Part shown: piece by piece, positions 11,211-28,885 of the stretch
Numbering within the stretch: position 1 is the stretch's first letter
Layout of the letters: every line of letters begins with the position of its first letter
Assembly: GCA_018056545.1 (NCBI GenBank)
Contig: JAGPFL010000012.1
Span: forward strand, 1 to 32,407
DNA from: Syntrophobacterales bacterium
GTDB taxonomy: Bacteria > Desulfobacterota > Syntrophia > Syntrophales > UBA8958
Direction: 5' to 3'
DNA: 32,407 nucleotides
The notes under the pieces: model-generated
Databases searched by the model: none
The model's input: the letters and a program-made list of their open reading frames with translations, nothing else
What the model was told of the DNA's origin: nothing
Position numbers and translations under genes: made by a program

Positions 11211-12920
11211 CTATTTTTCCTTGATGAACACAAAATCGCCGCCCTCGTGGCCGGAGTTTTTGATGATCCGATATTCGGGGGTCTGTTCGCTTTGGCCTCC
11301 CACCGACTCCTTGATATGTCTGATCATCAACTCTTCCGCAGTAAAACTACGGGAAAAAGGGTTCTTCAGGGCCTTGAGCAAAACGGCGGCAAAGATGGAG
11401 TGACCGGGAACGCCCGAGTCCGAGACAGGTTCGTTCCCGCCACTGGCAATCAGCACTCGTGATTTCTTTTCCATCATTTTGCTGAGGTAGATTTCTCTTG
11501 CCCCATGTCCTTCCAAGCTGGGACTAAAGGAGCGGGTCATGGTCCCGGCATAGCAGCTGTCGGCAACGATCAATATCTGCCGCGCCTGGGATCGGTTCAA
11601 CTCGTTGGTGATGGATTTCGCATCGATCCAGCGGATGGTGTTGTTCTTTTCCGCATCCACCGGTAGCCAAAAGGAAGTGTCGGTGTCTTTCTCATAATAG
11701 CCGTGACCGGCATAATAAATCAGGAGGCGGTCCTCGGGGTTGAGCTTCTTTTTCAAATCATCGAGGGCCTTCAGAATGCCCTCACGGGTGGCCGATCCGT
11801 CGAGTAAGAGGGTGCACTGGAAGTTGTAATGTTCGGCCAGGACATCACAGATGGATTTTGCGTCGCCGGCAGCGGTTTTCAACCTTCCGATGGCGTCCTC
11901 GTAATTGTTAATGCCTATGACCAGGGCAAAGGAACGTCCTGCGGACAAACCGGCATCGCCGCCTTTCCGGGCAGCCGTCCGCGCATCCCCCTTGGATTTG
12001 GCGATCTTTCCCCCCTCCCGGCGGATAGTGAAACTTTCCGTAGTTCGGTTCTTGCGGGTATCGATAGCAGTTACCGTGATCTTGTTGTCCCCCACCTTCA
12101 GGAGAATATCGGCGGAAAAATTGCCGTTTTCATCAAGAACCGCCTTTTCTTCATTTACGGTTACCGATGCCACGCCGCTTTCGTCGGTGGCCCGACCGGT
12201 TACGGTCAGCCCTTCTTCCTTTGCAACTATCCTGATCCCTCTTTTTACCTCCGGAGAAGTAATCGTGATAACCGGAGGGCGGTTGTCCTTGGTTTCCTGC
12301 ACCACTGTCGGCTTCTGCTCATACCGGTCTGCCGTCTGTCTTCTTTCAAATGCCTGCTTTTCCTCCAATTTCCAATCTTTTGCCATGTCCTCCCCGGCAA
12401 AAGTTTCCCTCCGTGATTCAGCAATCGCAGGGCCCTTGACCTGTCCCTGGCGGGGCAGAGACTCCCTGAGGTTATCGCTGATGGACAGGGCAAGCTGATG
12501 CGGACCGCCGTACCCGCTCGCCCATCCCTTCGTTATTATCCCGCCGGTCCGAACATCGATAAGGCGATAGCTTGCGGACAAGGGATCTCCCCTTTCGACC
12601 TTGCCGACCATTACGAGGTCCGCGCCCGCAAACCTTCCTACTTGTACCAGCCGCTCCGTAGTGAGCGGGCCCGATGCTTCAAGCCTTAATTCACCGGCGA
12701 CTGACCTCATCAACTCCCTTGACACTATCCGGAATTGTCCTTTCATGGCCAATATTTGCACCAGTTCTTTCGTGACCTCTGCCCCCAATGATACCGCACC
12801 GGGACTGTCGAATTTCAGAATCGCCAGCGTCTGCTGGCCTTGCGTGTAACCCCGGCCGGTCCAAAAGAAAAGAATCGCCGCCAATGAAAGGAAAATTAAT
12901 CGTTTCCCGAACCCGTTCAT
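11211..12920 (-). CDS. exported caspase-fold (C14-type) peptidase with FlgO/CsgG-like N-terminal domain
   Basis: A 569-residue protein with an N-terminal signal peptide (hydrophobic core about residues 8-20, no lipobox Cys), so it is probably periplasmic. Residues 30-150 (LAILKFDS through GADLVMVGKVERG to DVRTGGII) resemble FlgO/CsgG-like outer-membrane-associated domains. Residues 215-300 form an Ig-like beta domain (PPVITITSPE with TVTAIDTRKN). Residues 330-567 are the caspase fold: SFALVIGINNY, catalytic His406 in YYAGHGYY, and Cys456 in VADSCYAGT. Both dyad residues are intact, so activity is plausible; bacterial orthocaspases of this group usually cut after Arg or Lys. A promoter candidate lies upstream. 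Substrate unknown. Confidence 0.88.
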   Translation of the reverse strand: MNGFGKRLIFLSLAAILFFWTGRGYTQGQQTLAILKFDSPGAVSLGAEVTKELVQILAMKGQFRIVSRELMRSVAGELRLEASGPLTTERLVQVGRFAGADLVMVGKVERGDPLSASYRLIDVRTGGIITKGWASGYGGPHQLALSISDNLRESLPRQGQVKGPAIAESRRETFAGEDMAKDWKLEEKQAFERRQTADRYEQKPTVVQETKDNRPPVITITSPEVKRGIRIVAKEEGLTVTGRATDESGVASVTVNEEKAVLDENGNFSADILLKVGDNKITVTAIDTRKNRTTESFTIRREGGKIAKSKGDARTAARKGGDAGLSAGRSFALVIGINNYEDAIGRLKTAAGDAKSICDVLAEHYNFQCTLLLDGSATREGILKALDDLKKKLNPEDRLLIYYAGHGYYEKDTDTSFWLPVDAEKNNTIRWIDAKSITNELNRSQARQILIVADSCYAGTMTRSFSPSLEGHGAREIYLSKMMEKKSRVLIASGGNEPVSDSGVPGHSIFAAVLLKALKNPFSRSFTAEELMIRHIKESVGGQSEQTPEYRIIKNSGHEGGDFVFIKEK

Positions 12921-13023: not shown

Positions 13024-13115
13024 TGCTTGGCTGTTTTATGAATATATTATAGTTTAATGTTATTTCTTTCTTACCCTTGCCACAGGGCCTGGGGTTTAAT
13101 GAAAACTTCTTTCCT

Positions 13116-13149
13116 GTGTCATCGTCCTGCAACATGGCTTTGCTATCCT
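13116..13149 (+). promoter_or_regulatory. Pho-box promoter of the Lgt-like gene
   Basis: Half-sites GTGTCAT (13116-13122) and CTGCAAC (13127-13133) are separated by 4 bases, giving the 11-bp repeat period of PhoB sites. After exactly 10 bases comes an extended -10, TGC-TATCCT (hexamer 13144-13149). The same arrangement, and about 70 bases of similar sequence, recur at 16035-16068, and the geometry recurs at pstS. No -35 hexamer is needed at PhoB-activated promoters. Confidence 0.7.
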
Positions 13150-13170
13150 CCTCTGGAAAAGGATGATGAT

Positions 13171-14211
13171 ATGATCAAGACGATCTTTATCAGTGTTTTA
13201 ACCCTGACCCTCGTCGTCTTGTTCCGGTGGGCCTTCCGCACTTTGCCCGCCGAGGACTGGCAGATAATGGCCGCTGTGCCCCTACGCAAGGGGAAAAACG
13301 GACGCTGGATCGGCATGAACCTGACGTGGTATGGCTTTTTCAGCGCGAGTGCCTATGTTCTCGCTGCCGCCGTGTACTTAATGTTTACCACCTCCGTGGG
13401 TGTGTCCATAGGAGCCGCCGGTGCCTTGCTCGTTGCCGTCCTCGGGATCTGCGCCCCGGCGGCGAGGATCCTTGCCCGGCTGATCGAGGGCAAGGGTTTT
13501 ACCTTCACCGTCGGTGGGTCATCCTTTGTGGGTATCATCGTTTCCCCGTTTTTGGCTTTATGGCTGGAGACCATATCGGGATGGTCCCTGCCGCTCTTCC
13601 CGGTGATGGCCGCCATCGCCATTGCCTACGCCTTCGGCGAGGGGTTGGGAAGGCTCGCCTGTGTGAGCTTCGGTTGTTGCTACGGCCGGCCGTTGACGGA
13701 CTTCGGACCCGCAACGCAAAGAAGGATCGCACGCTGGGCCTTCATCTTTACGGGCAAGACCAAGAAGATCGCTTACGAAAGGGGGCTGGACGGGCAGGAA
13801 GTGATCCCCATCCAGGCCTTGTCGGCCATAGTCAACAGCGCCGCTGGTCTTTTAGGAACGGTCCTTTTCTTGACCTCAAAGTTTATCGCCGCTTACATGG
13901 TGACGGTGGTGATTACCCAGGGGTGGCGTTTTTTCTCCGAGTTTCTCCGCGCTGATTACCGCGGGCAGGGGAAGATTTCGGCCTATCAGAAGATGAACGT
14001 CACGGCCGTGGTTTTTGCCGGGGCCATGGCCGCCCTGGTGCCCGCCTTGGGGACCCCGTCTGCCGATCTCGGTGCCGGAATCGCAATCCTCTGGGATCCC
14101 GGCATGATCTTCTTCCTGCAAGGCCTTTGGCTGGTCTTCTTTCTCTATACGGGACGTAGTCGGGTCACGGGGGCGATACTGGACTTCTTTGTGCACCGCG
14201 ACCGGATTTAG
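13171..14211 (+). CDS. Lgt-like (prolipoprotein diacylglyceryl transferase family) membrane protein
   Basis: A 346-residue polytopic membrane protein. The region GRLACVSFGCCYGRP corresponds to the Lgt signature (GR-x-G-C/N-F-x-x-G-x-x-x-G), and SEFLRADYRGQG corresponds to the C-terminal Lgt motif containing the essential Arg. The usual PTQLYE before the last helices is replaced by VIPIQALSA, and the body is divergent, so it may not act on prolipoproteins. Canonical Lgt moves diacylglyceryl from phosphatidylglycerol to a lipobox Cys, releasing glycerol-1-phosphate. The start at 13171 is chosen because AAAAGGATG precedes it and because a 13057 start would place the Pho-box promoter inside the gene. 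The HAD-GDPD gene follows by 44 bases. Confidence 0.75.
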   Translation: MIKTIFISVLTLTLVVLFRWAFRTLPAEDWQIMAAVPLRKGKNGRWIGMNLTWYGFFSASAYVLAAAVYLMFTTSVGVSIGAAGALLVAVLGICAPAARILARLIEGKGFTFTVGGSSFVGIIVSPFLALWLETISGWSLPLFPVMAAIAIAYAFGEGLGRLACVSFGCCYGRPLTDFGPATQRRIARWAFIFTGKTKKIAYERGLDGQEVIPIQALSAIVNSAAGLLGTVLFLTSKFIAAYMVTVVITQGWRFFSEFLRADYRGQGKISAYQKMNVTAVVFAGAMAALVPALGTPSADLGAGIAILWDPGMIFFLQGLWLVFFLYTGRSRVTGAILDFFVHRDRI

Positions 14212-14255: not shown

Positions 14256-15755
14256 ATGGATCAGAGCAATACCTCTTGGATGTCGAGACTTGCCGAGCAC
14301 TACGAGCGGATACGTTGCTGCCTTCCCGACGAGGATCTGATGATCCTCTTCGACATCGACGGCACCATCCTCGACTCCCGCTACATGATCCACTTCGCCC
14401 TTAGCTCCTACGACCGCGCCCACGGCACCCAGTGGTTCCGCGATCTGACCGTGGAAGACATCATGGTGAACGAGAGCCAGGTAGAACTGCTCCTGGAAGG
14501 GCTGAACATCGGCGGCGGCCAGCGGGACGGAATCATTGCTTGGTATAATGAACGTTGCTGGTCTCCCGAGGGGATCCTCCGTTCCCATCGTCCCTTTATG
14601 GGGGTGATGGAGGTCATTCGCTGGTTCCAGATCCAGCCCCGGACCTATGTGGGTCTCAACACAGGACGCCCAGAGTCGATCCGTAGGGAAACCCTTATCT
14701 CCCTCAACAACATAGGGCGGGAGTACAAGGTAAGCTTTTCCAACGAACACCTCTTCATGAACCGGCGCGGATGGGGTGAGGGGGTGATCGAGGAGAAGAT
14801 GGAGGGCATTCGCCACTTTCGTGCTGCTGGTTTTCACGTCATTGCCTTCGTGGACAATGAACCTGAGAACCTCCAGGCCGTGGCCGGCATGGAGGGGGTC
14901 GACGAGCTCCTCCTCCTCCATGCCCACACCCTCTTCCGCTCCCAGCGTGAGCAACTCCCGGCACGGTCCGTGGCGGGGAAGGAGTATGATATAACGGAGC
15001 TTGTTCAAGAGCGCGCTTTACCCCGCCATGTACAGTTTGTCTGGCACGGTGTGAACGACGAGGCGAACCTGCGGCAATTCCTCGCCTCCAATGTCGAATG
15101 GGCCGAGTGCGATGTCCGCTTCGATTCCGGCGGGGAGGCGGTTGTGCTGCGGAACGACTCCTTTGCGGAGACCCCCCTCGATTCTGGCGAGCGGCTTATG
15201 GGCTTCAAGGAAATCCTGGAAAGCCTCAGGGGAAAGGACAAATCCCTTAAGATCGATATCAAGGAAAACGGCCTGCTACTGAACCGTGTCCTGGAGATCC
15301 TGCATGCCCAAGGTTTTCCCGACCGGCGGCTCTGGTTCAACGGAATGGTCGAAGTTCTGCGGGAGGAGGGATTCCGGAAACTTAAGGAAGTGTTTCCCGG
15401 TGCCGTCATTCAGTGCCCCATCGATTTTTTGATTCCCCTTATCCTCGGCGCTCCCGCCAAGGCCCTGGCCATTTTAGATGTTCTCCAGGGCTGGGGGATC
15501 AACCGTTTCTCCATCAACTGGAAGGCACAGGAAAAGCAGGAGATCATCGCTAAATTAGAGCGTTGGGGATATGAATTGAATATCTACAACGTGCCTGATC
15601 TCGAGGCCTTTCTCAAGGCCGTCCTCCTGCTCCCCCGTTCGGTCACCGCCGATTTCAACTTTCCCAAGTGGCACTACTTCGGCAGAGGCCCGGGATGGAA
15701 ACGCCGCCACTTCGAGTATTCCCTCGTACGGGCGCCGGAGGGACCGGTGTTATAG
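14256..15755 (+). CDS. HAD-type phosphatase fused to GDPD-like TIM barrel
   Basis: The 499-residue soluble protein has two parts. Residues 28-235 are a HAD hydrolase: FDIDGTILD with nucleophile Asp33 and acid Asp35, motif II in LNTGRP (Thr136), and a metal site in FVDNEPEN (Asp200). Residues 258-475 resemble the glycerophosphodiester phosphodiesterase superfamily: VWHGVNDE (His264) for the HRG strand, AECDVRFDSGGEAVVL (Glu284, Asp286) for the EFDV strand, LKIDIKE, and a C-terminal ELNIYNVPDLEAF like the GDPD V-N-x-x-T-V-N strand. The second catalytic His of GDPD (HD motif) is replaced by Asn300. It also recalls Menorin/FAM151 barrels. It is co-oriented with the Lgt-like gene, probably in one Pho-controlled transcript. 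Confidence 0.72.
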   Translation: MDQSNTSWMSRLAEHYERIRCCLPDEDLMILFDIDGTILDSRYMIHFALSSYDRAHGTQWFRDLTVEDIMVNESQVELLLEGLNIGGGQRDGIIAWYNERCWSPEGILRSHRPFMGVMEVIRWFQIQPRTYVGLNTGRPESIRRETLISLNNIGREYKVSFSNEHLFMNRRGWGEGVIEEKMEGIRHFRAAGFHVIAFVDNEPENLQAVAGMEGVDELLLLHAHTLFRSQREQLPARSVAGKEYDITELVQERALPRHVQFVWHGVNDEANLRQFLASNVEWAECDVRFDSGGEAVVLRNDSFAETPLDSGERLMGFKEILESLRGKDKSLKIDIKENGLLLNRVLEILHAQGFPDRRLWFNGMVEVLREEGFRKLKEVFPGAVIQCPIDFLIPLILGAPAKALAILDVLQGWGINRFSINWKAQEKQEIIAKLERWGYELNIYNVPDLEAFLKAVLLLPRSVTADFNFPKWHYFGRGPGWKRRHFEYSLVRAPEGPVL

Positions 15756-16034: not shown

Positions 16035-16068
16035 GTGTAATCGCCCTGTAACATGACGGTGTTATCCT
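16035..16068 (+). promoter_or_regulatory. Pho-box promoter of the 819-aa protein gene
   Basis: Half-sites GTGTAAT (16035-16041) and CTGTAAC (16046-16052) are 4 bases apart. Ten bases further is an extended -10, TGT-TATCCT (hexamer 16063-16068). CTGTAAC is the commonest second half-site of PhoB boxes. The flanks align with the promoter at 13116, suggesting the two regions arose by duplication. Confidence 0.72.
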
Positions 16069-16092: not shown

Positions 16093-18552
16093 ATGAGCAG
16101 ACAGGAGGGAATCGTTGTCAGTCGTCTCCGCACGGTAAGCCAGGGGGAGGAGAACCTGCCCCCTTTGCGCCGGATGCTGGAGAATTTAGGGATCCAAGGT
16201 GTCTTTTCCCAACTTGATGTTTCCACCCTGCCCTTTGCCGGCGGGGATGGCACGGCGGGCAGCGAGACGGAACTCCAGGCCGTAGTCAAAGGGGCCAAGG
16301 AAAAAGTCGATCTCCCTCTGGCCATCGAGGAATCCAATTATTTTGCGGATATCCTGCGGCGTGCCCGCTCCGGGGATACACAAAAGCGGATCGTGACGCA
16401 ACTCGAGAACTACCTGAACGCAAACGAAGATCGGGTATGGGAGAACAGTTGGGTGCGCTTTCCCCGGAAGCATTTGAGTTCCTGGACGGAAAGGATATTT
16501 CAACAGGATCTCCTGGCGGACAAAGAAGAGCCTGCCGCCGGGCTGCGTGCCGATGTCCACCGTTTCCTCTTCCGGAAAGACGGCGAGGAATGGGTGCGGC
16601 TGCCCATAAGTTACCTCCTCAAACTTGCCCTGGCGGAAAGCCTCGGCCGGGATTCGCCGGCGCGGCCGGAAGCGATCGCCGCGACGGGCCGCGATTTGCT
16701 GGGACATTTTCTCAACGACAACACCTCGCCGGAGACCTATTCCTTTCATGTCGTTTCCCTTAACGGCCGGCGGGGCATGGGCGGGGCCGTCGCCCGGGAG
16801 ATGGCCAAACGCTTCCTCCTTTCCCAACTCCTCGTCATGTACGCCAATGAACGGTTCAAATTACGGCAATACGGACAGGAGGCCATGGTCTATTGTTCCC
16901 CCCATCCGCCCCTACGGCAAAAACAGCTAAATGAAGCCATTTCCGATGCCTTCTACCGGGAATTGTTCATGAATCCCTGTCTGTCCGGATGGAGGTACGG
17001 GGAGGCTAAGCATGACTATATGCATCTCTGTCACCGGGTTCTGAGCCGCAGTCAATTGAACGCCGTGGGCAAACTTAGGGAGGCGGGGATCATCACCAGC
17101 AACCTCGTCATCCTTCCCCATACCTCGAATATCAGCCTGGCGAACAATGGAACCCATGTGAGCCTGGGGAGCCGCCGCCTGGGGGAGGCCATGGGAGATC
17201 GAACGAGCGGTTTTACGAGGGGTCAGGAGAAATATCTGGGTGATTTGGCAGTCAAGATCGTGGAACATTTCCTCCCCCTCTTCGTGGGAACCTATACCGC
17301 CGCGCCTTATCGCCTCGATTTCCTGGATTTCCATCCCGAAAGGGCCCTGTCGTTTCTCCCCCATGAGTTGGATTACACCCATCTGCGTATGCTCTGGCGG
17401 CGCTGGCGGAAGAAGGCCGATCTGAAGCTCTTCGGGCGCCCCCTTACCCCCTTCGGCCCCCCCTGGCTGGACCGGTCCCTCAGCGCCCTATGTCGTTTGC
17501 GGGGCGATTTTCTGCCCGATTTCCGACTGATCGATTATCTCGTAGCCCTCATGAGCACGGAGCGCTGCCCGGCCCTCGACGGGCGGCTGTCCAACAGCGA
17601 CCGCTTGAAGAAGGATCTTGCCGATCAGGGGATCTTCAGTACGCGGATGTCGCTATATCTATTTGAAAAAATGAGGGAATATAATGTGATGGGGTTTTCG
17701 GGATTCGAGGCCCGGCATTATAGCCTCTTCGAGACCTTCGGCGATGACATGGGCTGGGCCGTGGAACTGCAGAACCTTCTGTACTGCCTGGCCTTCAAGT
17801 ATATCGCGGCGGGTCGGCTTGACCACCGGCACATTCCCGACCGCCCCTTCACGGAGAGCGAACGCCGGCAGGTAATCTTCGGGACGGCGATCGGGGTGCC
17901 GACCTTTTTTGTCCGGAAAGATACGGACAACGAACTGCTGCGGATGATCATGGCCCGGACGGACCGGGTAAGGTCGAGTCATCGTTACCCCGGTTATCTG
18001 CGGGTCTATAACCTGGAATATCGCCGGGCGCTGCTGAAACTGATCCGGGAAGACGGCGCCGACCTTTTGGAGATGTTCGACATGGGGGAGGTTATGGAAG
18101 ACCTTTCCCGGCGGCTGGAGGAACCGGAAGATCATTCCGCCGTGGACCGCCTCACCGCCGGCATCCTGAGGAAGAGCGGCGCCGCCTCTCCCCTGGCGCA
18201 GTCCGCCTCCGATTTCAACCTCGCTGCGGAGCGCTACTACCGGGAGGAGTTGCGTCTTCGGCATTGCGAGGAGAGCCTGAATTTTCTGGCGGAAGATCTA
18301 CAGACCCTCGAGGAGAAAGACGTGACAGTGGAGCTAAGGCCGGCCCTCCGGTATGTCCTTTCCATCGAACATCCCGTTTCCTACCTGGACCGCCTGCGGA
18401 GAACTCTCCTCCGGGGAGAGGCGGGGGAGACGGAACTGCTGCGCCTTATCTATTTGATATTGCTCACCGTTTATCAGGACCGCCGTCTGGCGGAAAGAGA
18501 AAATAAGCCGGTAGGCGAGGAGAAGAAACCCCATGTCGCATCAGTATATTGA
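16093..18552 (+). CDS. unrecognised 819-residue protein, Pho-box controlled, coupled to a PSD-like gene
   Basis: I do not recognise this family. The protein is long, soluble-looking, rich in Arg, His and Leu, with no signal peptide and no clear membrane segment. Distinctive stretches likely to be conserved are VSLNGRRGMGGAVAREMAKR (about residues 222-241), YCSPHPPLRQKQLNEA, WRYGEAKHDYMHLCHRVLSR, and ILPHTSNISLANNGTHVSLG (about residues 338-357). The Gly-Arg/His-rich stretches could form a nucleotide or anionic-substrate site, but that is a guess. It starts a transcript with its own Pho-box promoter (ribosome site AAAGGAGG). Its last 20 bases overlap the start of the PSD-like gene, implying translational coupling and a shared pathway. 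The length resembles PlsB acyltransferase, but the HxxxxD motif is absent. Confidence 0.8.
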   Translation: MSRQEGIVVSRLRTVSQGEENLPPLRRMLENLGIQGVFSQLDVSTLPFAGGDGTAGSETELQAVVKGAKEKVDLPLAIEESNYFADILRRARSGDTQKRIVTQLENYLNANEDRVWENSWVRFPRKHLSSWTERIFQQDLLADKEEPAAGLRADVHRFLFRKDGEEWVRLPISYLLKLALAESLGRDSPARPEAIAATGRDLLGHFLNDNTSPETYSFHVVSLNGRRGMGGAVAREMAKRFLLSQLLVMYANERFKLRQYGQEAMVYCSPHPPLRQKQLNEAISDAFYRELFMNPCLSGWRYGEAKHDYMHLCHRVLSRSQLNAVGKLREAGIITSNLVILPHTSNISLANNGTHVSLGSRRLGEAMGDRTSGFTRGQEKYLGDLAVKIVEHFLPLFVGTYTAAPYRLDFLDFHPERALSFLPHELDYTHLRMLWRRWRKKADLKLFGRPLTPFGPPWLDRSLSALCRLRGDFLPDFRLIDYLVALMSTERCPALDGRLSNSDRLKKDLADQGIFSTRMSLYLFEKMREYNVMGFSGFEARHYSLFETFGDDMGWAVELQNLLYCLAFKYIAAGRLDHRHIPDRPFTESERRQVIFGTAIGVPTFFVRKDTDNELLRMIMARTDRVRSSHRYPGYLRVYNLEYRRALLKLIREDGADLLEMFDMGEVMEDLSRRLEEPEDHSAVDRLTAGILRKSGAASPLAQSASDFNLAAERYYREELRLRHCEESLNFLAEDLQTLEEKDVTVELRPALRYVLSIEHPVSYLDRLRRTLLRGEAGETELLRLIYLILLTVYQDRRLAERENKPVGEEKKPHVASVY

Positions 18553-19555
18553 CCGGGGCAGCCGGGAAGTTCGGGAAGAAACCTTTTTCGGGCACGAGGG
18601 GATCAGATTCATCTATTCCCGCCTACGGGAAAACGCCCCCCTGATGTTCCGACTGACGACGAGTGCCAGGATGTCGCGGCTGCTGGCTTTCGTGAACTTC
18701 CATGACCTCCTCAACGAGAAGCTGAACGGTCGGCGCGCTTTTTTGAAAACCGCGGGGATCGATCCGGCGGAGTGCCTCGACGACGCCTGCCGTCTCGATT
18801 CCCCCCGGAAGGTTTTCGAAAGGAAGATCCGCTACTGGGATTGTCGTCCCCTGCCCCGGGACCCCGCCGTCGTGGTTTCCCCCTGCGACGCCCGGATGCT
18901 GATCGGTTCTTTCGACAGTGCTTCCGGATTCTTTCTTAAAGACAAGTTCTTTGTGTTTGAGGAACTTCTGGGACGGAACAAGAAAACCTGGCTGAAGACC
19001 CTGGCGGGAGGAGATTTTGCCGTCTTCCGCCTGACCCCCGACCGTTATCATTACAATCATACCCCCGTGGCGGGCCGGGTCGTGGACTTCTACACCATTC
19101 CCGGACGCTACCATGCCTGTCATCCCGAAGCGGTCGTCAGTCTTGTGACGCCATATGATAAGAATAAACGGGTGGTTACGATCATCGACACCGATGTCCC
19201 CGGCGGCACCGGCGCGGGCTTGGTGGCCATGGTCGAAGTCGTGGCGTTGATGATCGGAGAGATCGTCCAGTGTTACAGTGAGCGAAGATATGATGATCCG
19301 GTGCCGGTTGGTCCGGGGCTCTTCGTCCGGAAAGGCTGTCCGAAGAGCCTGTTCCGTCCCGGCAGCAGCACCGTCGTCTTGATCTTTCCCCGGGGTCGGG
19401 TCCGCTTCGCCGACGATCTGGTCTGGAATATGCGGCTTCCCGGCGTAAAGAGCGTTTTCAGCGAGGGGTTCTCTTTGCCCCTCGTCGAGACGGATGTCAA
19501 GGTCCGGGAGCTGATCGGGACGGCTCATCCAGTTCTTCAAGGAGATTCCGCGTGA
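18533..19555 (+). CDS. phosphatidylserine decarboxylase-like pyruvoyl enzyme
   Basis: The 340-residue product has the three catalytic elements of phosphatidylserine decarboxylase. Asp119 lies in VVSPCDARM (family SPxDG), His173 in RYHYNHTPVAG (family YHxxHxP), and the self-cleavage site is PGSST at residues 276-280 (family LGST, cut between Gly277 and Ser278 to make the pyruvoyl group). TIPGRYHACHPEAV also matches the family core. Canonical enzymes turn phosphatidylserine into phosphatidylethanolamine. No phosphatidylserine synthase gene is nearby, and the CDAR change at the Asp motif suggests another serine- or amino-acid-bearing lipid or small molecule. It overlaps the 819-aa gene by 20 bases, with GAGGAGAAG as ribosome site inside it. 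Confidence 0.85.
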   Translation: MSHQYIDRGSREVREETFFGHEGIRFIYSRLRENAPLMFRLTTSARMSRLLAFVNFHDLLNEKLNGRRAFLKTAGIDPAECLDDACRLDSPRKVFERKIRYWDCRPLPRDPAVVVSPCDARMLIGSFDSASGFFLKDKFFVFEELLGRNKKTWLKTLAGGDFAVFRLTPDRYHYNHTPVAGRVVDFYTIPGRYHACHPEAVVSLVTPYDKNKRVVTIIDTDVPGGTGAGLVAMVEVVALMIGEIVQCYSERRYDDPVPVGPGLFVRKGCPKSLFRPGSSTVVLIFPRGRVRFADDLVWNMRLPGVKSVFSEGFSLPLVETDVKVRELIGTAHPVLQGDSA

Positions 19556-19637: not shown

Positions 19638-20045
19638 ATGAAGTCTGCACAGATCGAGTTCTTTCGCACGCTCCTCCTTGGGGAGCTCAATGCGCTGCGG
19701 CTTGCCGCCGGAAAAACCGTGAACGGCCTGCGGGACGGCGGCGGTAAGCTGGCTGATCCCCTCGATCGGGCGGCGGTGGAACTGGACCGACACATCGAAT
19801 TGTCCATCCGGGATCGAGAAAGAGCCGTCATGGAAGAAATAAAAGGGGCCCTGGCGAGGATGGACCGGGATGAATTTGGGATCTGTGACCGCTGCGGCCG
19901 GGACATCGGCGAAAAACGCCTGCGGGTGCGGCCCACCTGCCGTCTTTGCCTCATTTGTCAGGAGCGCCGGGAAATGAATGCCCGGCAGCCGTTTCCCGGG
20001 AAAGTGACGGGGTCGGGGAACGACATCGCCGGTTTCAGGGAGTGA
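19638..20045 (+). CDS. dksA: DksA/TraR-type zinc-finger transcription factor
   Basis: The 135-residue protein contains the DksA coiled-coil tip DPLDRAAVE (Asp40, Asp43) and a four-Cys zinc finger, CDRCGRDIG with a later CLIC (Cys83, Cys86, Cys104, Cys107). DksA binds RNA polymerase in the secondary channel and, with ppGpp, resets transcription during nutrient stress. The acidic tip needed for activity is present, so it is a DksA-like factor rather than only a TraR-type fragment. It is 82 bases after the PSD-like gene with AAGGAG ahead of the start, and may share its Pho-controlled transcript. Whether it is the organism's only DksA is unknown. Confidence 0.88.
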   Translation: MKSAQIEFFRTLLLGELNALRLAAGKTVNGLRDGGGKLADPLDRAAVELDRHIELSIRDRERAVMEEIKGALARMDRDEFGICDRCGRDIGEKRLRVRPTCRLCLICQERREMNARQPFPGKVTGSGNDIAGFRE

Positions 20046-20127
20046 AAGGTGACGACGGCGGAAATCAGGTTCTATGTGCGCCCGTACAGGATATGGACCC
20101 TTTGCTAACCATAAGGAAACACAAAAT

Positions 20128-21987
20128 ATGTTGACTCAGCAGGAAATACCGGCGGTCTCCTGTGCCCAGCCGGAAACGAAGATAAATCTTTATCTGTCCC
20201 ATCCGACCAGGGAGACAATAAAGGATGAAAAGAACTTTCTCGCTCTGGTGCAGCCCCGGCCGCACTTTCACCCGATAATCGACTTCTTTACGGGGATGAC
20301 CCTCGGTTATGAGGTGCTCTCCCGTGGAAACCCCCCTTTCGAAACGCCGGCGAAGATGTTTGCCGAGGCCAGGCGCCGGGGTCTGGCCTGGGAAATGGAA
20401 AAGGCGTGCCGCATTGCCGCCCTGAAGACCATCGCCGGCTTTCCCGGCGAACTGCGGGGGGCTACCTACTTCATCAATGTCAGCCCCGATTCTTTCAGTG
20501 ACCCCCGCTTTACGGATCGCTTTACCCAGAAGCGACTTGCCGAATACGGCCTGGACCAGCGGCAGATCGTCATCGAGATCACGGAGGAGAAATCTTTCGA
20601 AGACTATGAACGTTTCCAGAAACTGACGACTCACTATGTGAACCAGGGATTCAAGATCAGTCTCGACGATTTCGGTGCCGGATATTCGGGCCTTATCGCC
20701 CTTATCGCCTGCACCCCACACTATCTGAAGCTCGACATGGCCATTGTTCGTGACGTCCACAAGCACGATTACAAACAGAAACTTGTGAAGGCCATTGCCG
20801 CCTTTGCCGCCAGTGTCAACGCGAAGCTTATCGCCGAAGGTGTGGAAAGCTGGGAAGAGCTGGACGTTCTTGTGCGCTACGGGGTCCGTTACGCCCAAGG
20901 TTTTCTTTTCGGGCGGCCCTGGGAGACGCCCACCGGCCTATCCGGTACCCAGAAGACGAAAATCATGTCGCTGGTAAAGAAATACGACCAGACCAAGGCG
21001 GATCTCGATGAAAGGATCGGCAGTATGGTGGTCCGACCCATGACCATCAGGAGAAATAGTCTCCTCTGCCGGGACCTGGACGATCAGTTCAAGAAGGCAC
21101 CCCATCTGGATCACGTGGTGATCATCGATGAAGATCGGGTTTACGGCCTCATCACCCGGCAGCATTTCTATCTGGAAACCGGTGGTGCTTTTGGTTATCA
21201 GCTTTTCCAGAAGAAATTCGCAGATGTGATCTGCAAGCAACAGCCCTTGACGGTGCCGGACAAGATCACCGTCACCGCCCTGGCAAAACTGGCCATGGAC
21301 CGGTTTCAGGAGGACCTCTATGACCCCGTCCTGGTGGTGGATTGCCGGGGAGGGTTTGTCGGTTCCGTAACGATGAAGCAGGTCATCACCAAGGCCGTGG
21401 AATTGGAGGTGCGTTGCGCCATGGCGGCCAATCCGTTGACGAACCTTCCCGGCAACGAGGTGATCCGCCACTGGATCCACGATGCCCTCCTGAACGGTGA
21501 ATACACTATCATTTATGTCGATTTGGACAATTTCAAAGGCTTTAACGATTCATACGGCTTTCTTATGGGTGACGAACTCCTCCGCCTCACCGCCCGGATC
21601 CTGGGAGAAGGTGTGCCGACCATCCAGGAGGGGGCCAAGCTGGGCCATGTGGGGGGAGACGACTTTGTCATCGTCTGTCCCGGCCTCATCTCTGAGAGGA
21701 ACTTAGGTGATCTTTGCCGTTCTTTCGATCAGGCCAAACTCGAGTTGTTCAAGCTCGAACATGTGCAAAAGGGGTATTTCGAGATGGTGGATCGGCAAGG
21801 CCATCTCACTCAAGTGCCTCTGGTCACCATGAGTATGGCCGTCATCGACAGCCGCCGGGTCTGGAGCGACCCCCATCCCGCTCTCTTTTCCGAAGTGGCG
21901 GCCTCCCTGAAGAAGAAGGTAAAACAGCTTACCGGACAGACGGGGAGAAGCGCCTTCCTCTTCGAGCAACGCACCTATGGCATATAA
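20128..21987 (+). CDS. EAL-CBS-CBS-GGDEF cyclic-di-GMP signalling protein
   Basis: The protein has 619 residues from the ATG at 20128, chosen over 20074 because AAGGAAA precedes it. Residues 35-270 are an EAL phosphodiesterase with GYEVLSR (Glu62), NVSPDS, EITEE, DDFGAG (180-185), LKLD and AEGVE, all metal and catalytic positions kept. Residues 290-425 are a CBS pair (VRPMTIRRN, VVIIDEDRVYGLI, VLVVDCRGGFVG) that may bind an adenine nucleotide. Residues 435-615 are a GGDEF domain with DLDNFKGFN and GGDDF (509-513), likely still competent. It has no signal peptide or membrane segment, so it is cytoplasmic. It lies between the DksA gene and phoB, which suggests coupling of cyclic-di-GMP to phosphate or energy status. 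Confidence 0.92.
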   Translation: MLTQQEIPAVSCAQPETKINLYLSHPTRETIKDEKNFLALVQPRPHFHPIIDFFTGMTLGYEVLSRGNPPFETPAKMFAEARRRGLAWEMEKACRIAALKTIAGFPGELRGATYFINVSPDSFSDPRFTDRFTQKRLAEYGLDQRQIVIEITEEKSFEDYERFQKLTTHYVNQGFKISLDDFGAGYSGLIALIACTPHYLKLDMAIVRDVHKHDYKQKLVKAIAAFAASVNAKLIAEGVESWEELDVLVRYGVRYAQGFLFGRPWETPTGLSGTQKTKIMSLVKKYDQTKADLDERIGSMVVRPMTIRRNSLLCRDLDDQFKKAPHLDHVVIIDEDRVYGLITRQHFYLETGGAFGYQLFQKKFADVICKQQPLTVPDKITVTALAKLAMDRFQEDLYDPVLVVDCRGGFVGSVTMKQVITKAVELEVRCAMAANPLTNLPGNEVIRHWIHDALLNGEYTIIYVDLDNFKGFNDSYGFLMGDELLRLTARILGEGVPTIQEGAKLGHVGGDDFVIVCPGLISERNLGDLCRSFDQAKLELFKLEHVQKGYFEMVDRQGHLTQVPLVTMSMAVIDSRRVWSDPHPALFSEVAASLKKKVKQLTGQTGRSAFLFEQRTYGI

Positions 21988-22098: not shown

Positions 22099-22809
22099 AT
22101 GAAAGCGAAGAAAATTCTGGTGGTAGATGATGAAAAGGATATCGCGGAGCTTATCGCCTTCAATCTCGAACAGGAAGGATTCTCCGTTTTCCGGGCTGGG
22201 GGCGGTGAGGAGGCCATGAGCCTGATCCGGAGCAAAGAGCCCGATTTGGTCATTCTGGATCTCATGATGCCCGGACTGAGCGGTTTCGATGTCTGCCGTC
22301 TGGTCCGCAAGAACGTGGCCACGGAAAACCTGCCCATCATCATGGTTACGGCCCGGGGGGAGAACCTGGACAAGGTCCTGGGTCTGGAGCTGGGGGCCGA
22401 CGATTACATCACCAAACCGTTCAGTGTCCGTGAACTTGTCGCGAGAGTGCGGGCTGTACTCCGACGCTCCGAGCGGCGTCCGCCACCGGAAGGAACGGAG
22501 TTTTTCTCTTGTCGCGATCTGGAAATCAATTATCTTTCCTATGAGGTGCGCCGGAAGGGGCAGAAGATCGACTTGGGTACAAAAGAACTGAAACTGTTGA
22601 TATTTCTTACAAAAAATCCCGGCCGTGTCTATTCACGGGATCAACTGCTCGAATATGTCTGGGGGGACGAGACCTTTGTGGAACCCCGAACGGTGGATGT
22701 CCATATCAGCAGGCTCCGGGCGGCCATTGAGGAGGACCGGGATCATCCGGAATTCATTCTCACCGTGCGGGGGTTGGGATACAAGTTCGTCGATCTGCAG
22801 ACCCGGTAG
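22099..22809 (+). CDS. phoB: phosphate regulon response regulator PhoB
   Basis: The 236-residue OmpR-family regulator has a receiver domain (Asp10-Asp11, phospho-Asp54 in VILDLMMPG, Thr in MVTARGE, Lys in YITKPFS) and a winged-helix DNA-binding domain (from about residue 135: LGTKELKLL, RDQLLEYVWGD, RTVDVHISRLR, VRGLGYKF). PhoB-like identity is supported by the pst-phoU-phoR operon next door and by the Pho boxes. It is unusual in being on the opposite strand to phoR and converging with arsC, rather than in a phoBR pair. It probably activates the promoters at 13116, 16035 and 29746. Confidence 0.92.
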   Translation: MKAKKILVVDDEKDIAELIAFNLEQEGFSVFRAGGGEEAMSLIRSKEPDLVILDLMMPGLSGFDVCRLVRKNVATENLPIIMVTARGENLDKVLGLELGADDYITKPFSVRELVARVRAVLRRSERRPPPEGTEFFSCRDLEINYLSYEVRRKGQKIDLGTKELKLLIFLTKNPGRVYSRDQLLEYVWGDETFVEPRTVDVHISRLRAAIEEDRDHPEFILTVRGLGYKFVDLQTR

Positions 22810-23462: not shown

Positions 23463-25364
23463 TCACGTCTCCTTCGTCGTCGGGCCGGCAGGAAAAAATA
23501 GGGAAACCGTAGTCCCCTGGCCGAAGGTGCTCTCGATGTCCATCCGCCCGCCGTGGGCTGCCATGAGGTGCTTGACGATGGACAGTCCCAGACCGGTGCC
23601 GCCCAGCTCTCGAGAGCGGGTCTTGTCCACCCGATAGAAACGCTCGCCAAGGCGGGGGAGATCGCCTTTCGGTATCCCCGGCCCGGTATCGGTGACGCGG
23701 ATGACAACGAAACCCCTTTCCTGGTCGTTACCGCCGGAAAGGGTGGGGGCGACCGCGGTGCGTCCCGCTGATGCAATCCGACCATGTCTGGAGATTTGGG
23801 GGTCGCCGCCGGGGCCAGGGCCTTCTTTTTCCATATTATTTCCGACCGTTAGCTTTTGCGTGTCCGCCGTCACGGTGATTTTTCCCCCCACAGGGGTGTA
23901 TTTGACCGCATTGTCCAGGATATTGAGAAGCGCCTGGGCCGCCCGGTCCCGATCCGCCCGCAGGGGCGGGGTGGCCGGGGCGACGCGGGTGACGGCCTCG
24001 ATCTGCTTTTCCTGCAAGCGGGGATGAATCGTTTTCCAGACGTCGGCTATCAACTCTGCCGGGGTTACACTTTCCAGATGCAAACTTGTTTCCCCCGTCT
24101 CGATGTTGGAGAGGGTGAGGAGATCGTCCACCAGACGGTTGAGGCGCCGGGCGTTGGCGTGGATCGTCTGGAGAAATCTTTCCGTCTGGAGATCGTCACT
24201 GACGGCGCCGGGTTGCAGCAGTGTTTCCACATAGCCGATGATGGCCGTCAGGGGCGTCCTGATTTCGTGGGTCACGTTGGCCACGAAATCCATACGCATC
24301 CGCTCGAGCTGCTTGAGACGGGTGACGTCGTGAAAGACCATCATCACCTTTCCCGTGTCGTCGGGATAACCCTTGACGCTGGAGATATTCACTTCGAGTA
24401 CCAGGGGTTTTTCCTCTCCCAGGACAACTTCCTGGGTCAACGGGGTTCCTGTTTTACGGAAGAGGAGGAAGGCGTCATGGAGGGCGGCGCTGCGGAACAC
24501 CTCCAGGATGGTCTTGCCCAGGATTTCGTCCTGGCGGCGGCCGAGCATCCGGCGGAGACTGCGGTTGAACTGGTCGATGCGGTTGTCCCGGTCCAGGGTG
24601 AGGACCCCTTCCACCATCCCGGCGAAGGCCGCCTCGAGCTTGCTCTTTTCTTCTGTCGCCAGGCGGATCTTTTCCTCCTGCGCCGCAAGAATCAGATTGA
24701 TGTCTTTCGTCAGTTTGCCCAGTTCGTCCTCACTATCCGTCAAGAGCGGTGAGACCTTTTCCCCGGCACGGATCTTTGCCGTGAAATCCATCAATCTCCG
24801 GATCGGCGCGGAGATGTTACGGGCGAAAAAGAAGGCCAGCAGGAGGGAGGGAATCGCGATGATGAAGAGGGTCAGATATATGGAACGATAGAGATGCTCG
24901 ATGGATTGAGATACCTCCTCCAGGGAGTGGGCGAGACGGACGTAACCGCGGATAACCTTGCCGTCCCCTACGGCGACGGCGACATACAACATGTGCTGCC
25001 GGAGGGTCCGGCTGTAACGCACGGCGGTGCCCAGGCCGCGAATTCTTGCCTCCTGAACTTCAGGACGATTGAGGTGATTGTCCCATTTCTGCTCCTGTTG
25101 TGAGGAGTCCGCCAGCACCCGCCCGGCGGCGTCGATGACGGTGATCCGCGCCTGGGCGCCGGCAGCCATCTCTTTGGCCTTCTTCGTCAGTTCTTCCAGG
25201 GGCGTAAGGGCCATGATCCGGCCGTGACCGATCATCCTTTCCTTGACGCCCCGGGTGATGGTCTCGCGGATCTGGGGCGTCAAGAAGAATTCCATGACGG
25301 CGACAACCAAGATCACCAGGATCAAATAAGTGGCGAGTGTCTTGTAAAAAAGTCGGCCTTTCAC
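23463..25364 (-). CDS. phoR: phosphate regulon sensor histidine kinase PhoR with ATP-domain insertion
   Basis: The 633-residue membrane kinase has TM1 at residues 8-27, a periplasmic sensor region to about 158, TM2 at 160-180, a HAMP domain at 181-235, a PAS domain at 245-350, and a dimerisation helix with FVANVTHEIRTPL (His366). The ATP domain has the N-box LLNILDNAVKYTP (479-491), DTGPGIP, FYRVDKTRSRELGG and GTGLGLSIV. The PhoR assignment rests on the operon and the typical RELGGTGLGL stretch. Between the N-box and DTGPGIP there are about 50 extra residues (roughly 502-552), rich in Gly, Pro and charged residues, where most PhoR proteins have a short loop. It follows phoU by 90 bases and precedes arsC. 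Confidence 0.92.
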   Translation of the reverse strand: MKGRLFYKTLATYLILVILVVAVMEFFLTPQIRETITRGVKERMIGHGRIMALTPLEELTKKAKEMAAGAQARITVIDAAGRVLADSSQQEQKWDNHLNRPEVQEARIRGLGTAVRYSRTLRQHMLYVAVAVGDGKVIRGYVRLAHSLEEVSQSIEHLYRSIYLTLFIIAIPSLLLAFFFARNISAPIRRLMDFTAKIRAGEKVSPLLTDSEDELGKLTKDINLILAAQEEKIRLATEEKSKLEAAFAGMVEGVLTLDRDNRIDQFNRSLRRMLGRRQDEILGKTILEVFRSAALHDAFLLFRKTGTPLTQEVVLGEEKPLVLEVNISSVKGYPDDTGKVMMVFHDVTRLKQLERMRMDFVANVTHEIRTPLTAIIGYVETLLQPGAVSDDLQTERFLQTIHANARRLNRLVDDLLTLSNIETGETSLHLESVTPAELIADVWKTIHPRLQEKQIEAVTRVAPATPPLRADRDRAAQALLNILDNAVKYTPVGGKITVTADTQKLTVGNNMEKEGPGPGGDPQISRHGRIASAGRTAVAPTLSGGNDQERGFVVIRVTDTGPGIPKGDLPRLGERFYRVDKTRSRELGGTGLGLSIVKHLMAAHGGRMDIESTFGQGTTVSLFFPAGPTTKET

Positions 25365-25454
25365 CTTTCGATCTTACCTCATATCTCTCTTTCCCCCTTG
25401 TGCGGGAGCCGCCTTCCGGCAATGAAACGCGAAACTTTCTTCCGCGGCGATCGG

Positions 25455-26156
25455 TCAGTTCGAAGGGGCCTGCTCTTCGGCAGCGGGCCATTGGTGGCGG
25501 ACATTCTGGCCGGTGATCATGAAGACGACCATGTCGGCGATGCCCTTGGCGTGATCGGAGATCCGCTCCACCGTCTTGGAGATCTGCATGATGAGCAGCG
25601 CCCGGTGGATCGTCCGGGGGTCCTCCATCATGAAGGTTAGAAGCTCCCGGAAGATCTGTTCGTTGAGACTGTCCACCACCTCGTCCTCGCGGCGGACCTT
25701 GTTGGCCAGCTCCACGTCTTCACTGACCAGGGCGTCCAGGCTTTCCCGGATCATCGTCCGGGCGATCTCCGCCATCCGGGGGAGATCGATGTAGGGCTTC
25801 AGTTGGGGCTCCTCGTTAAGAAGGGCGACCTTTTCGCAGATCTTTACCGCCATGTCGCCGATCCGCTCCAGGTGACCGTTTATCTTGATGGCCGTGGTGA
25901 TGAAGCGGAGATCACGGGCGGCGGGCTGCCGGAGGGCAAGGAGGCGGATGCACTTTTCTTCCACTTCGTCGTCCAGTTTGTCGATTAGGGCGTCGTTGGC
26001 GATGACCTTCCGGGCCAGGTCGGTATCCCGGTCCAAAAGGGCCTGGATGCTGTCCTCGATCGCCTTTTGCGTCAGGGCGCTGAGGTAGAGGAGATTCTCC
26101 TTCACCTCCTGAAGATCCGTTTCGTACTGTTTGCTGGTGTGTCTTCTTTCTTCCAT
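25455..26156 (-). CDS. phoU: phosphate transport regulator PhoU
   Basis: The 233-residue helical protein has two PhoU repeats: AIEDSIQALLDRDTDLARKVIANDALIDKLDDEVEEKC with ARDLRFITTAIKINGHLERIGD, and the second with ELANKVRREDEVVDSLNEQIF followed by ISKTVERISDHAKGIADMVVF. PhoU links the Pst transporter to PhoR so that the kinase is held inactive when phosphate is abundant. The ATG at 26156 (MEERRHTSKQYE) with AAGGA 8 bases ahead is preferred to the TTG at 26198. It lies between pstB and phoR, exactly the context for that relay. Confidence 0.95.
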   Translation of the reverse strand: MEERRHTSKQYETDLQEVKENLLYLSALTQKAIEDSIQALLDRDTDLARKVIANDALIDKLDDEVEEKCIRLLALRQPAARDLRFITTAIKINGHLERIGDMAVKICEKVALLNEEPQLKPYIDLPRMAEIARTMIRESLDALVSEDVELANKVRREDEVVDSLNEQIFRELLTFMMEDPRTIHRALLIMQISKTVERISDHAKGIADMVVFMITGQNVRHQWPAAEEQAPSN

Positions 26157-26244
26157 TTCCGGTCCTTGAAAAAGTTGTTGCTGCAGGTGGTTGGTCAAAT
26201 CGTTCCGGCGGCTCTAATCATCGGTTGTGGAGGTTGTTTCTTGC

Positions 26245-27060
26245 TTATCCGAAGCGGCCGGTGATGTAGTCTTCCGTCTGTTTCACGTCGGGATTGGTAA
26301 AGATCTTTTCCGTGGCGTTGTATTCTATCAGCTTTCCCAGGTAGAAAAAACCCGTCGTGTCGGAGACCCGGGCGGCCTGCTGCATGTTATGGGTGACGAT
26401 GATGATGGTATATGTTTTTTTCAACTCGTCAATCAATTCTTCGATCTTGGCGGTGGAGATCGGGTCCAGGGCCGAGGTGGGCTCGTCCATGAGGAGGACG
26501 TCGGGTTTCATGGCGAGGGCCCGGGCGATGCAGAGACGCTGCTGTTGCCCCCCGGAGAGGGTCATGGCCGACCTCCCGAGGATGTCCTTCACCTCGTCCC
26601 AGAGGACGGCCTGGCGTAGGCTTTGCTCCGCCAGGGCTTCGAGCTCCGCCTTGCCGCTGACGCCTGCCAGGCGCGGGCCGTAGGTGATGTTGTTGAAGAT
26701 CGACTTGGGAAAGGGGTTGGGCTTCTGGAAGACCATGCCGATGCGGCGGCGGACCTCCACGGGATCGATTTCCGGGGCGTAGATGTTCATCCCTTCGAAG
26801 AGGACCTCTCCTTCCACCCGTGCCCCGTCGATGAGGTCGTTCATTCGGTTGAGGAGCCTAAGCAGCGTGGACTTGCCGCATCCCGAAGGTCCGATGAGGG
26901 CGGTCACCCGATTTTTCTCGAAGTCCATGGAGATATCCGTCAAGGCCTGGAAGGCGCCGTAATAGAAATTTACCCTTCTGGTTTTGACGATGATGTTGTC
27001 GCTGCCGAAGTCGTCGTTATGGCTGTTGCCGACGTCACGGTTGTTTGCTCGCTGTTTCAT
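26245..27060 (-). CDS. pstB: phosphate ABC transporter ATP-binding protein PstB
   Basis: The 271-residue product has Walker [10 protein letters not shown], the Q-loop in [12 protein letters not shown], signature [15 protein letters not shown], Walker [14 protein letters not shown] and the switch His in VTHNM. The VFQKPNPFP and [20 protein letters not shown] stretches are specific to PstB. It energises phosphate uptake through PstC-PstA. A short polar extension of about 20 residues precedes the first strand. It lies 52 bases after pstA, and phoU follows by 88 bases. Confidence 0.97.
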
Positions 27061-27112
27061 AGTCTATTGCTCTTTTTTGTAATGACCATATACGTTTCCC
27101 CGGCGGTTTGCG

Positions 27113-27994
27113 CTACCATCTCTTCTTCCTGCGCATGTAACTGCGGATGACAATGGCGATGAGATCTATGCCCAGAACCAGGGCGACAAGAACCAGGACC
27201 GTCCCGTACTGGATGGGCCGGGTCTGTTCGATATAGGTGCCGGCGGTGGCGAGGACATAGACGTGATAGGGAAGGGCCATGACCTCGTCGAAAATGGAGC
27301 CGGGAAGTTTGGCGGTGAAAAAGGCGGCGGCGGTGAACATGATGGGGGCCGTTTCCCCGGCGGCCCGGCCGATGCCGAGGATGGAACCGGTGAGGATGCC
27401 CGGCAGGGCGTTGGGGAGGACGATCTTCAGGATCGTCAGCCACTTGGAAACCCCCAGGGCCAGGGAAGCCTCCCGGAAGGTTTGGGGGACGGATTTCAGG
27501 GCCTCCTCGGAGGCGCCGATGATGGTAGGCAGGATGAGGATGCCCAGGGTCAGGGCGCCGGAGAGGATGCAGGAGCCGAACTGCAGGAAGACCACGAAGA
27601 AACCCAGCCCGAAGAGGCCGAAGACGACGGAGGGCACCCCGGCCAGGCAGTTGACGCCCACGCGGATGGCCCGGACGACTTTCCCCTGCTTGGCGTATTC
27701 CGTGAGATAGATGGCGGCCATGACCCCGAGGGGCAGCGCCACGGCGATGGCCCCGACGGTTAGATAAAGGGTTCCCAGGATCGCCGGCATGATGCCCCCC
27801 TTGGTCATGGAATCCGTGGGGGGCAGGGTCAGGAAGTCCCAGGAGATGACCCGGAAGCCGTTGATGAAAATGTAAAAGAGCAGGCCCCCCAGGGCGGCGG
27901 CGAGAATCAGGGCGGCGAGGCGGACGATCCCGAAGAAGACCTGCTGTTTCAGATAACGCCATTTCATGGCGCCGCTCATGTTTTGTCTGGTCAT
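27113..27994 (-). CDS. pstA: phosphate ABC transporter permease PstA
   Basis: The 293-residue inner-membrane permease has about six hydrophobic segments and the ABC coupling helix EEALKSVPQTFREASLALGVSK (EAA loop), followed by VLPNALPGILTG and GRAAGETAPIMF, all typical of PstA. The open frame extends far upstream, but the ATG at 27994 overlaps the pstC stop as ATGA, indicating translational coupling and fixing the start. Met at 27979 or 27967 are alternatives. It pairs with PstC to form the channel. Confidence 0.95.
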   Translation of the reverse strand: MTRQNMSGAMKWRYLKQQVFFGIVRLAALILAAALGGLLFYIFINGFRVISWDFLTLPPTDSMTKGGIMPAILGTLYLTVGAIAVALPLGVMAAIYLTEYAKQGKVVRAIRVGVNCLAGVPSVVFGLFGLGFFVVFLQFGSCILSGALTLGILILPTIIGASEEALKSVPQTFREASLALGVSKWLTILKIVLPNALPGILTGSILGIGRAAGETAPIMFTAAAFFTAKLPGSIFDEVMALPYHVYVLATAGTYIEQTRPIQYGTVLVLVALVLGIDLIAIVIRSYMRRKKRW

Positions 27995-28878
27995 AGCGTC
28001 GCCGACCCCACTTCCTTGAATTTCTGGGCGATGTAATCGGCGACGAGATTGAAGGCCAAGGTCATGAAAAACAGGACGATCCCCGTGGCGAAAAGGGCAT
28101 GGTAATGGCCGCTCCGGAAGGGGGCCTCCCCCATCTCGGCGGCGATGCTGGCCGGCATGGGCCGGACGGAATCGAAGACGCTCTCCGGGATGGCGGCGGC
28201 GCCGCCGGCGACCATGAGGACCACCATGGTCTCCCCGATGGCCCGGGCCATGCCGAGGATCACGGCGGTGGAGATTCCCGAAAGGGCGGCGGGGATAATG
28301 ATCCGGGCGATGGTCTCGAATTTCGTCGCCCCCAGGGCGTAGGATGCCTCCTTGAAATCCTGGGGAACGGCGTACAGGGCGTCCTCGGAGATGCTGGAGA
28401 TGGTGGGGACGGCCATGACGGCCAGGATCACCGAGGCGTTGACGATATTGAGCCCCGTGGGGAGATCGAAGGTGTCCTGGAGCCAGGGGGCGACGATTAC
28501 CATGCCGAAAAAGCCGAGGACCACCGACGGCAGCCCGGCGAGGAGTTCGATTATCGATTTGAGGATTTCCTTGATCGCCGGGGGGGCGATTTCCGAGATA
28601 TAGACCGCCGACAGCACCCCCAGAGGGACGGCGACGAGGGAGGAGAAAAAGGTGACGACGAGCGAGCCGACGATCAGCGGCCAGATACCGTAGGACGGCG
28701 GACTGTAGGTCGGATACCACTCCCGGCCGAAGAGGAACTCCCGGACGGATACCTCCCGGAAGATCGGCAGCCCCTCCCGGAAGAGAAAGACGATGATGAG
28801 TCCCAGAATCATCACGGAGATCAGGGAGAGGACGAAGAAAACATTTTTTATGACGATTTCTTTTTGATAGCGGGTCAT
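27991..28878 (-). CDS. pstC: phosphate ABC transporter permease PstC
   Basis: The 295-residue permease has a long first membrane helix (residues 14-34), then YGIWPLIVGSLVVTFFSSLVAVPLG, a conserved LAGLPSVVLGFFG, the EAA coupling loop EDALYAVPQDFKEASYALGATK and ARAIGETMVVLMVAGG. These are standard PstC features. It begins 7 bases after the pstS stop with GTAGGA as ribosome site and its end overlaps the pstA start by 4 bases. Confidence 0.96.
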   Translation of the reverse strand: MTRYQKEIVIKNVFFVLSLISVMILGLIIVFLFREGLPIFREVSVREFLFGREWYPTYSPPSYGIWPLIVGSLVVTFFSSLVAVPLGVLSAVYISEIAPPAIKEILKSIIELLAGLPSVVLGFFGMVIVAPWLQDTFDLPTGLNIVNASVILAVMAVPTISSISEDALYAVPQDFKEASYALGATKFETIARIIIPAALSGISTAVILGMARAIGETMVVLMVAGGAAAIPESVFDSVRPMPASIAAEMGEAPFRSGHYHALFATGIVLFFMTLAFNLVADYIAQKFKEVGSATL

Positions 28879-28885
28879 CGTTGTC

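Follow-up and report, generated by a model that had tools for sequence, protein, structure and literature searches.

The stretch of DNA considered here (contig JAGPFL010000012.1 of a Syntrophobacterales bacterium, 32,407 nucleotides, called the window below) contains two overlapping genes that had attracted attention in a sequence-only reading. The first codes for a protein of 819 amino acids and the second for a protein resembling phosphatidylserine decarboxylase (PSD); for this analysis they are named X819 and PSDL, respectively. The reported overlap of 20 bases is exact (positions 18533-18552), and the assignment of the second gene agrees with a match to PF02666 (E 7e-36). The window is a phosphate island (pstSCAB-phoU-phoR and phoB), in which an Lgt-like membrane protein is encoded as well. 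The genes for X819, PSDL and the Lgt-like protein co-occur almost perfectly, usually form one operon-like run and have diverged together. They are found in the proximity of Pst/Pho genes, and in the window a Pho-box-like promoter precedes X819. Desulfobacterota probably carry, in this cassette, an undescribed membrane lipid pathway for phosphate starvation.

The distribution of the three genes was followed in a near-relative set of 60 genomes, in a phylum set of 395 Desulfobacterota genomes and in the neighbourhoods of 55 X819 loci. Homologues of X819 occur in 16 of the 60 near relatives and in 46 of the 395 phylum genomes. Two of these 46 are short fragments, so that 44 genomes carry the gene, either complete or truncated where a contig stops. 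It is always a single gene (split across two contigs in genome G007) and its presence is patchy (40 of 245 genera). Profile searches retrieved the PSDL subfamily in 44 of the 395 genomes at E<1e-140, after which the next PSD drops to 1e-40. The Lgt-like protein was likewise retrieved in 44 genomes at E<1e-92, with a bimodal score distribution (1e-93, then 1e-11), and its co-occurrence with PSDL is 44/44. All three genes are found together in 43 genomes (Fisher p 3e-55), and the exceptions (G175, G382 and G061) are truncations at contig ends. In the single-contig genome G420, a relic of X819 of 31 residues (L149:6058-6150) is left without PSDL and without the Lgt-like gene, which fits the loss of the cassette as a whole.

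The arrangement of the genes is equally constant. PSDL follows X819 at 54 of the 55 loci, so the gene-neighbourhood survey proposed in the sequence-only reading returned a fixed pairing. X819 homologues apart from a PSD-like gene are confined to contig ends and the 31-residue relic. Because the pairing is essentially invariant across the phylum, X819 and PSDL can be regarded as a functional pair. The Lgt-like gene lies within the fetched stretch at 54 of the 55 loci, the sole gap being a contig end. It usually comes next after PSDL, unlike in the present window, where it is found upstream of X819. Only these three genes are near-universal across the loci. The pairwise distance matrices of their products are correlated (Mantel r 0.75, 0.73 and 0.61; p 0.001), within an X819 family of 53 members with a mean pairwise identity of about 52%. 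The functional pairing claimed earlier thus stands, while the obligate Lgt-like partner had been overlooked and the supporting argument from a missing phosphatidylserine synthase does not hold (see below).

The site behind the promoter proposed for the pair could also be verified. The Pho-box-like site at 16035 is real and ranks among the top two in the window: sites scoring at least 14.5 are found only before X819 and before pstS (at 29773, 69 bp upstream), and shuffled windows contain 0-1 sites of that score. Among the upstream regions of 54 X819 loci, 12 contain a Pho box at p<=0.05 and 9 at p<=0.01, as judged with an E. coli-like matrix (the same as for the whole window). The signal is enriched and not universal. 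With this matrix, the other 42 of the 54 regions (p>0.05) have no recognisable Pho box, which counts against the phosphate-starvation pathway proposed below. The surroundings of the genes were also inspected, with homologues of PhoU, PstB, PstC and PstS typed at other loci. PhoU, PstB or PstC is present in 11 of the 55 X819 neighbourhoods (839 kb in total), where about 0.3 would be expected by chance (our estimate, assuming one pst cluster per ~3.3 Mb). Putative phosphate control of the X819-PSDL pair is well supported by these sites and neighbours.

Table 1. Features of the cassette and its surroundings (window coordinates)
Feature	Position	Strand	Remarks
Lgt-like membrane protein, third cassette member	13057-14211	+	PF01790; start more likely 13171
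HAD-like protein	14256-15755	+	weak HAD match; facultative neighbour of the cassette
Pho-box-like site GTGTAATCGCCCTGTAAC (GTGTAAT-CGCC-CTGTAAC)	16035-16052	+	58 bp upstream of the X819 ATG
X819	16093-18552	+	819 amino acids; unnamed family, candidate ligase of the glutamine synthetase (GS)/glutamate-cysteine-ligase superfamily
GxExELQ motif at residues 54-65 of X819 (TAGSETELQAVV), a metal-binding candidate	16252-16287	+
Second motif of X819, SNISLANNGTHVSLGS (residues 345-360), which may correspond to the GLHVHVG strand of GCS2	17125-17172	+	hhalign register, block test
PSDL, PSD-like pyruvoyl decarboxylase	18533-19555	+	340 amino acids; PF02666 match
DksA/TraR-type zinc-finger protein	19638-20045	+	also at 15 of 55 related loci
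PhoB-type response regulator	22099-22809	+	TIGR02154 E 1e-81, just under the equivalog cut-off
phoR, phoU, pstB, pstA, pstC, pstS	23463-29704	-	open reading frames and translations; PhoR by profile scan

PSDL belongs to the PSD family, yet falls outside its equivalogs, whose cut-offs serve here as a proxy for activity on phosphatidylserine. With 124 bits it passes the curated threshold of PF02666 (cut-off 22), whereas it remains below every cut-off of the NCBIfam PSD equivalogs (115 bits versus 371 for the best model, 65 versus 112 for TIGR00163). Its match in the PDB is the E. coli PSD, with an alignment that spans the Asp/His part, and a PsiD-like match was found as well. Asp119, His173, His176 and the GSST stretch (residues 277-280, placed by eye) are kept in the subfamily (21-55 members). 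As the catalytic Asp/His residues and the GSST site are retained, PSDL is expected to work as a pyruvoyl decarboxylase. Another contig of the genome (C28) carries a short psd that is followed immediately by a gene for a CDP-alcohol phosphatidyltransferase (pssA-like). The absence of a phosphatidylserine synthase, from which X819 had been put forward as a candidate to make or present the substrate, is thus true within the window only. With an ordinary short psd and a pssA-like gene available, PSDL is regarded as a paralogue that serves a different function. Contig C109 encodes a third PSD homologue (L039:10780-11943, minus strand). It has 387 residues, a signal-peptide-like N terminus and an HFAYGGS motif, and it may be an exported decarboxylase relative.

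With phosphatidylglycerol as donor, the Lgt enzyme forms a diacylglyceryl thioether, and glycerol 1-phosphate is the second product. The Lgt-like protein of the cassette matches PF01790 with 38.9 bits (cut-off 24.9). Its conserved residues Arg199, Arg291, Glu295, Arg298 and Asp300 were aligned by eye with Arg143, Arg239, Glu243, Arg246 and Asp248 of the phosphatidylglycerol site of E. coli Lgt. In the same alignment by eye, the equivalents of E. coli His103, Asn146 and Glu151 are Val, Cys and Cys. Owing to these replacements, a lipobox cysteine is an unlikely acceptor. From its residues, the protein would keep the phosphatidylglycerol donor and transfer to an acceptor other than the lipoprotein cysteine. 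An ordinary lgt is present elsewhere in the genome (contig C60). Together with the short psd and the pssA-like gene, this indicates that the Lgt-like protein and PSDL of the cassette are specialised paralogues.

The least familiar member of the cassette is X819. Pfam, NCBIfam, PHROGs, PADLOC and the PDB sequences were searched with a single sequence and with a profile, and none of them returned a match, which bears out the sequence-only reading in its failure to recognise a family; an enzyme unrelated to lipids did not emerge as a match either. Of the motifs quoted at that stage, SPHPPLRQKQ and HTSNISLANNGTHVSLG indeed fall in strongly conserved columns, whereas GRRGMGGAVA is mostly unconserved. 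Relatives were not found in viral and plasmid collections, and all members found belong to one phylum. The protein has no hydrophobic segments and should therefore be soluble. A PlsB-type acyltransferase was considered for its similar length and was rejected, as X819 has neither the HxxxxD motif nor a matching profile.

A candidate superfamily is suggested by the order of short conserved blocks. In the GxExELQ motif, Gly56, Glu58, Glu60 and Gln62 are at least 98% conserved, and unguided hhalign comparisons pair it with the GxExExQ (ExE) motif that GCS2 proteins carry (E 0.011-0.016, insignificant alone). The same degree of conservation is reached by Asn351, Asn352, Gly353, His355 and Ser360 of the second motif. 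When pieces of X819 were aligned with YbdK-type GCS2 proteins, GTHVSLG and EHFLPLFVGTYTAAPY came to lie opposite GLHVHIG and LLSYLPHFLALSSNSPF. Both comparisons single out residues that are important in the superfamily, at E values (0.011 to 0.11 overall) that are not significant on their own. The ordered GCS2 active-site blocks GxExE, GxHVxxG and LPxxxALxAxSP were then used as a three-block test. X819 obtained z 4.6 (p<=0.0005), similar to the true superfamily members GS (z 4.5) and plant-type glutamate-cysteine ligase (GCS; z 4.3). Seven unrelated decoy families gave p>=0.11, and none of 250 single decoy proteins reached the X819 median. The active-site blocks, the sole pointer to this superfamily, suggest it weakly; X819 being one of its ligases is rated at slightly better than an even chance.

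Several observations weigh against this placement. The GCS2 blocks were chosen post hoc, after the resemblance had been noticed, and the third block falls at about residue 421 where 393 was predicted (~28 residues off). The blocks of plant-type GCS give no signal on X819 (p 0.78). Full hhalign comparisons of X819 with GCS2, GS and decoys stayed below 4% probability, in what is a weak test, given that GCS2 versus GS fails too. Searches of X819 with hmmscan and hmmsearch against the GCS2, GS and guanido-kinase families were empty or insignificant. AlphaFold, run with two-row alignments, yielded pLDDT 36 for the whole protein and 35 for residues 42-446. A weak guanido-kinase match was obtained in only one of the 53 members (E 0.021), and guanido-kinase homologues were not detected in the phylum in a search whose controls were silent as well.

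Other genes accompany the cassette less regularly. Homologues of the HAD-like protein with at least 55% identity occur at 6 of the 55 X819 loci. Its family match is not clear, and its C-terminal stretch looks like a glycerophosphodiesterase by eye only, which is unconfirmed. The DksA/TraR-type zinc-finger gene recurs beside the cassette in positions and orientations that vary between loci. An EAL-CBS-GGDEF protein is encoded at 20074-21987 (plus strand), with homologues near the cassette at 11 loci. On the other side of the cassette (11211-12920, minus strand) lies the gene for an unusual fusion: a caspase-fold protein (Peptidase C14) whose N-terminal part is CsgG/LpoB-like and which also has a domain resembling glucodextranase-B/Big_7.

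Taken together, the three proteins may constitute a single phosphate-starvation pathway for an alternative, probably phosphorus-free membrane lipid; on the present sequence comparisons, the chances for and against are evenly balanced. A more specific scheme, somewhat less probable than not, would be an Lgt-type recycling of the diacylglycerol of phosphatidylglycerol onto an amino-acid-derived headgroup, with a new ATP-dependent ligase family building this headgroup and a PSD-type decarboxylase trimming it. Upon phosphate starvation, the Lgt-like protein would take the diacylglycerol from phosphatidylglycerol and pass it on to an acceptor that is either small or a lipid, thereby freeing glycerol phosphate. 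X819, as a soluble ATP-dependent carboxylate-amine ligase, would make or extend the amino-acid-derived headgroup, which PSDL would decarboxylate. That X819 helps to make or modify the substrate of PSDL is plausible. The neighbouring HAD-like protein could regain phosphate from the freed glycerol phosphate.

The scheme has to be weighed against other uses of the same genes. X819 may not be a ligase and could instead belong to another superfamily (for instance as an acyltransferase, a glycosyltransferase or a guanido-kinase-type phosphotransferase) while serving the same lipid pathway. This is a serious, if lesser, possibility: all sequence-profile searches with X819 are empty, the block test is post hoc, and there is the single guanido-kinase match, although guanido kinases share a GS-like fold and not the chemistry. 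The block test nevertheless sets X819 apart from the decoys and alongside GS and GCS. The cassette might also act on a molecule that is not a lipid, such as an amine-containing envelope polymer or a small signalling molecule. PSDL would then decarboxylate a free amino acid, X819 would ligate it and the Lgt-like protein would anchor the product to the membrane. PSD relatives do include enzymes for free amino acids, as the PsiD-like match illustrates, and the native substrate of Lgt is a protein. This role is nonetheless unlikely, as across the 55 loci the trio has no constant companion among genes for small peptides, transporters or polymers.

A role in classical phospholipids appears quite unlikely. 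Here, the cassette would serve the synthesis or turnover of a phospholipid during phosphate stress, be it phosphatidylethanolamine or a different one, with PSDL as a stress isoenzyme of PSD and X819 as a regulator or substrate presenter. The intact catalytic residues of PSDL, its place in PF02666 and the requirement of the classical lipids for PSD are compatible with such a role. The short psd and pssA-like gene pair elsewhere in the genome speaks against it, and an extra PSD would leave the obligate Lgt-like partner and the all-or-none distribution unexplained. Moreover, making more phospholipid during phosphate starvation is the opposite of the usual response. A neutral accident of synteny within one lineage would agree with the restriction of all X819 members found to one phylum (outside it, the plasmid and viral collections were searched). 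It is strongly disfavoured, to the point of being barely credible, by the patchy presence, the all-or-none loss and the relic in G420, and by an adjacency that was kept across deep divergence while the neighbours changed.

Lipid changes in response to phosphate have been described in the phylum. Phosphate limitation of Desulfovibrio alaskensis G20 induces glycolipids and ornithine lipids via Agt and OlsF, and a large share of the polar lipids of anoxic waters is free of phosphorus (PMC5193443). Not all genes behind such phosphorus-free lipids are known, and the cassette offers a concrete target: three phosphate-linked genes in about 11% of the sampled Desulfobacterota genomes, one of which represents a large enzyme family that the searched family databases do not contain. 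If the proposal is true, two known folds, those of Lgt and PSD, have been recruited jointly for a purpose other than the synthesis of lipoproteins and phosphatidylethanolamine.

Each protein of the cassette can be compared to a known relative. X819 resembles GS and the GCS2 carboxylate-amine ligases (PF04107, YbdK/glutamate-cysteine ligase) in the order of its GxExELQ and GTHVSLG-type blocks, which are candidate equivalents of theirs. It differs by about twice the length, large insertions, an extra C-terminal part and a profile match that is not significant, so that membership is not established. The Lgt-like protein has the family, the multi-pass membrane topology and most phosphatidylglycerol-site residues in common with Lgt (PF01790; E. 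coli structure 5azb), and is set apart by the three replaced residues and an invariant GRLACxSFGCCYG motif. Like Psd (PF02666), PSDL scores above the Pfam cut-off and has retained the Asp, the His and the site of autoprocessing, GS(S)T. In contrast to Psd, it forms a distinct subfamily (1e-141 versus 1e-40) under the NCBIfam equivalog cut-offs and is obligately linked to X819 and the Lgt-like protein, not to pssA. As a whole, the cassette shares its setting, the Pho-controlled replacement of phospholipids in anaerobes of the phylum, with BtaAB (betaine lipids), OlsBA/OlsF (ornithine lipids) and Agt (glycolipids), none of which is part of it. A combination of Lgt-like, PSD-like and X819 proteins was not described in any paper found in a literature search. 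In view of this, and of the absence of Agt and OlsF from it, the trio is a new cassette that includes a new protein family; in its general kind, lipid remodelling under Pho control, it follows a known theme.

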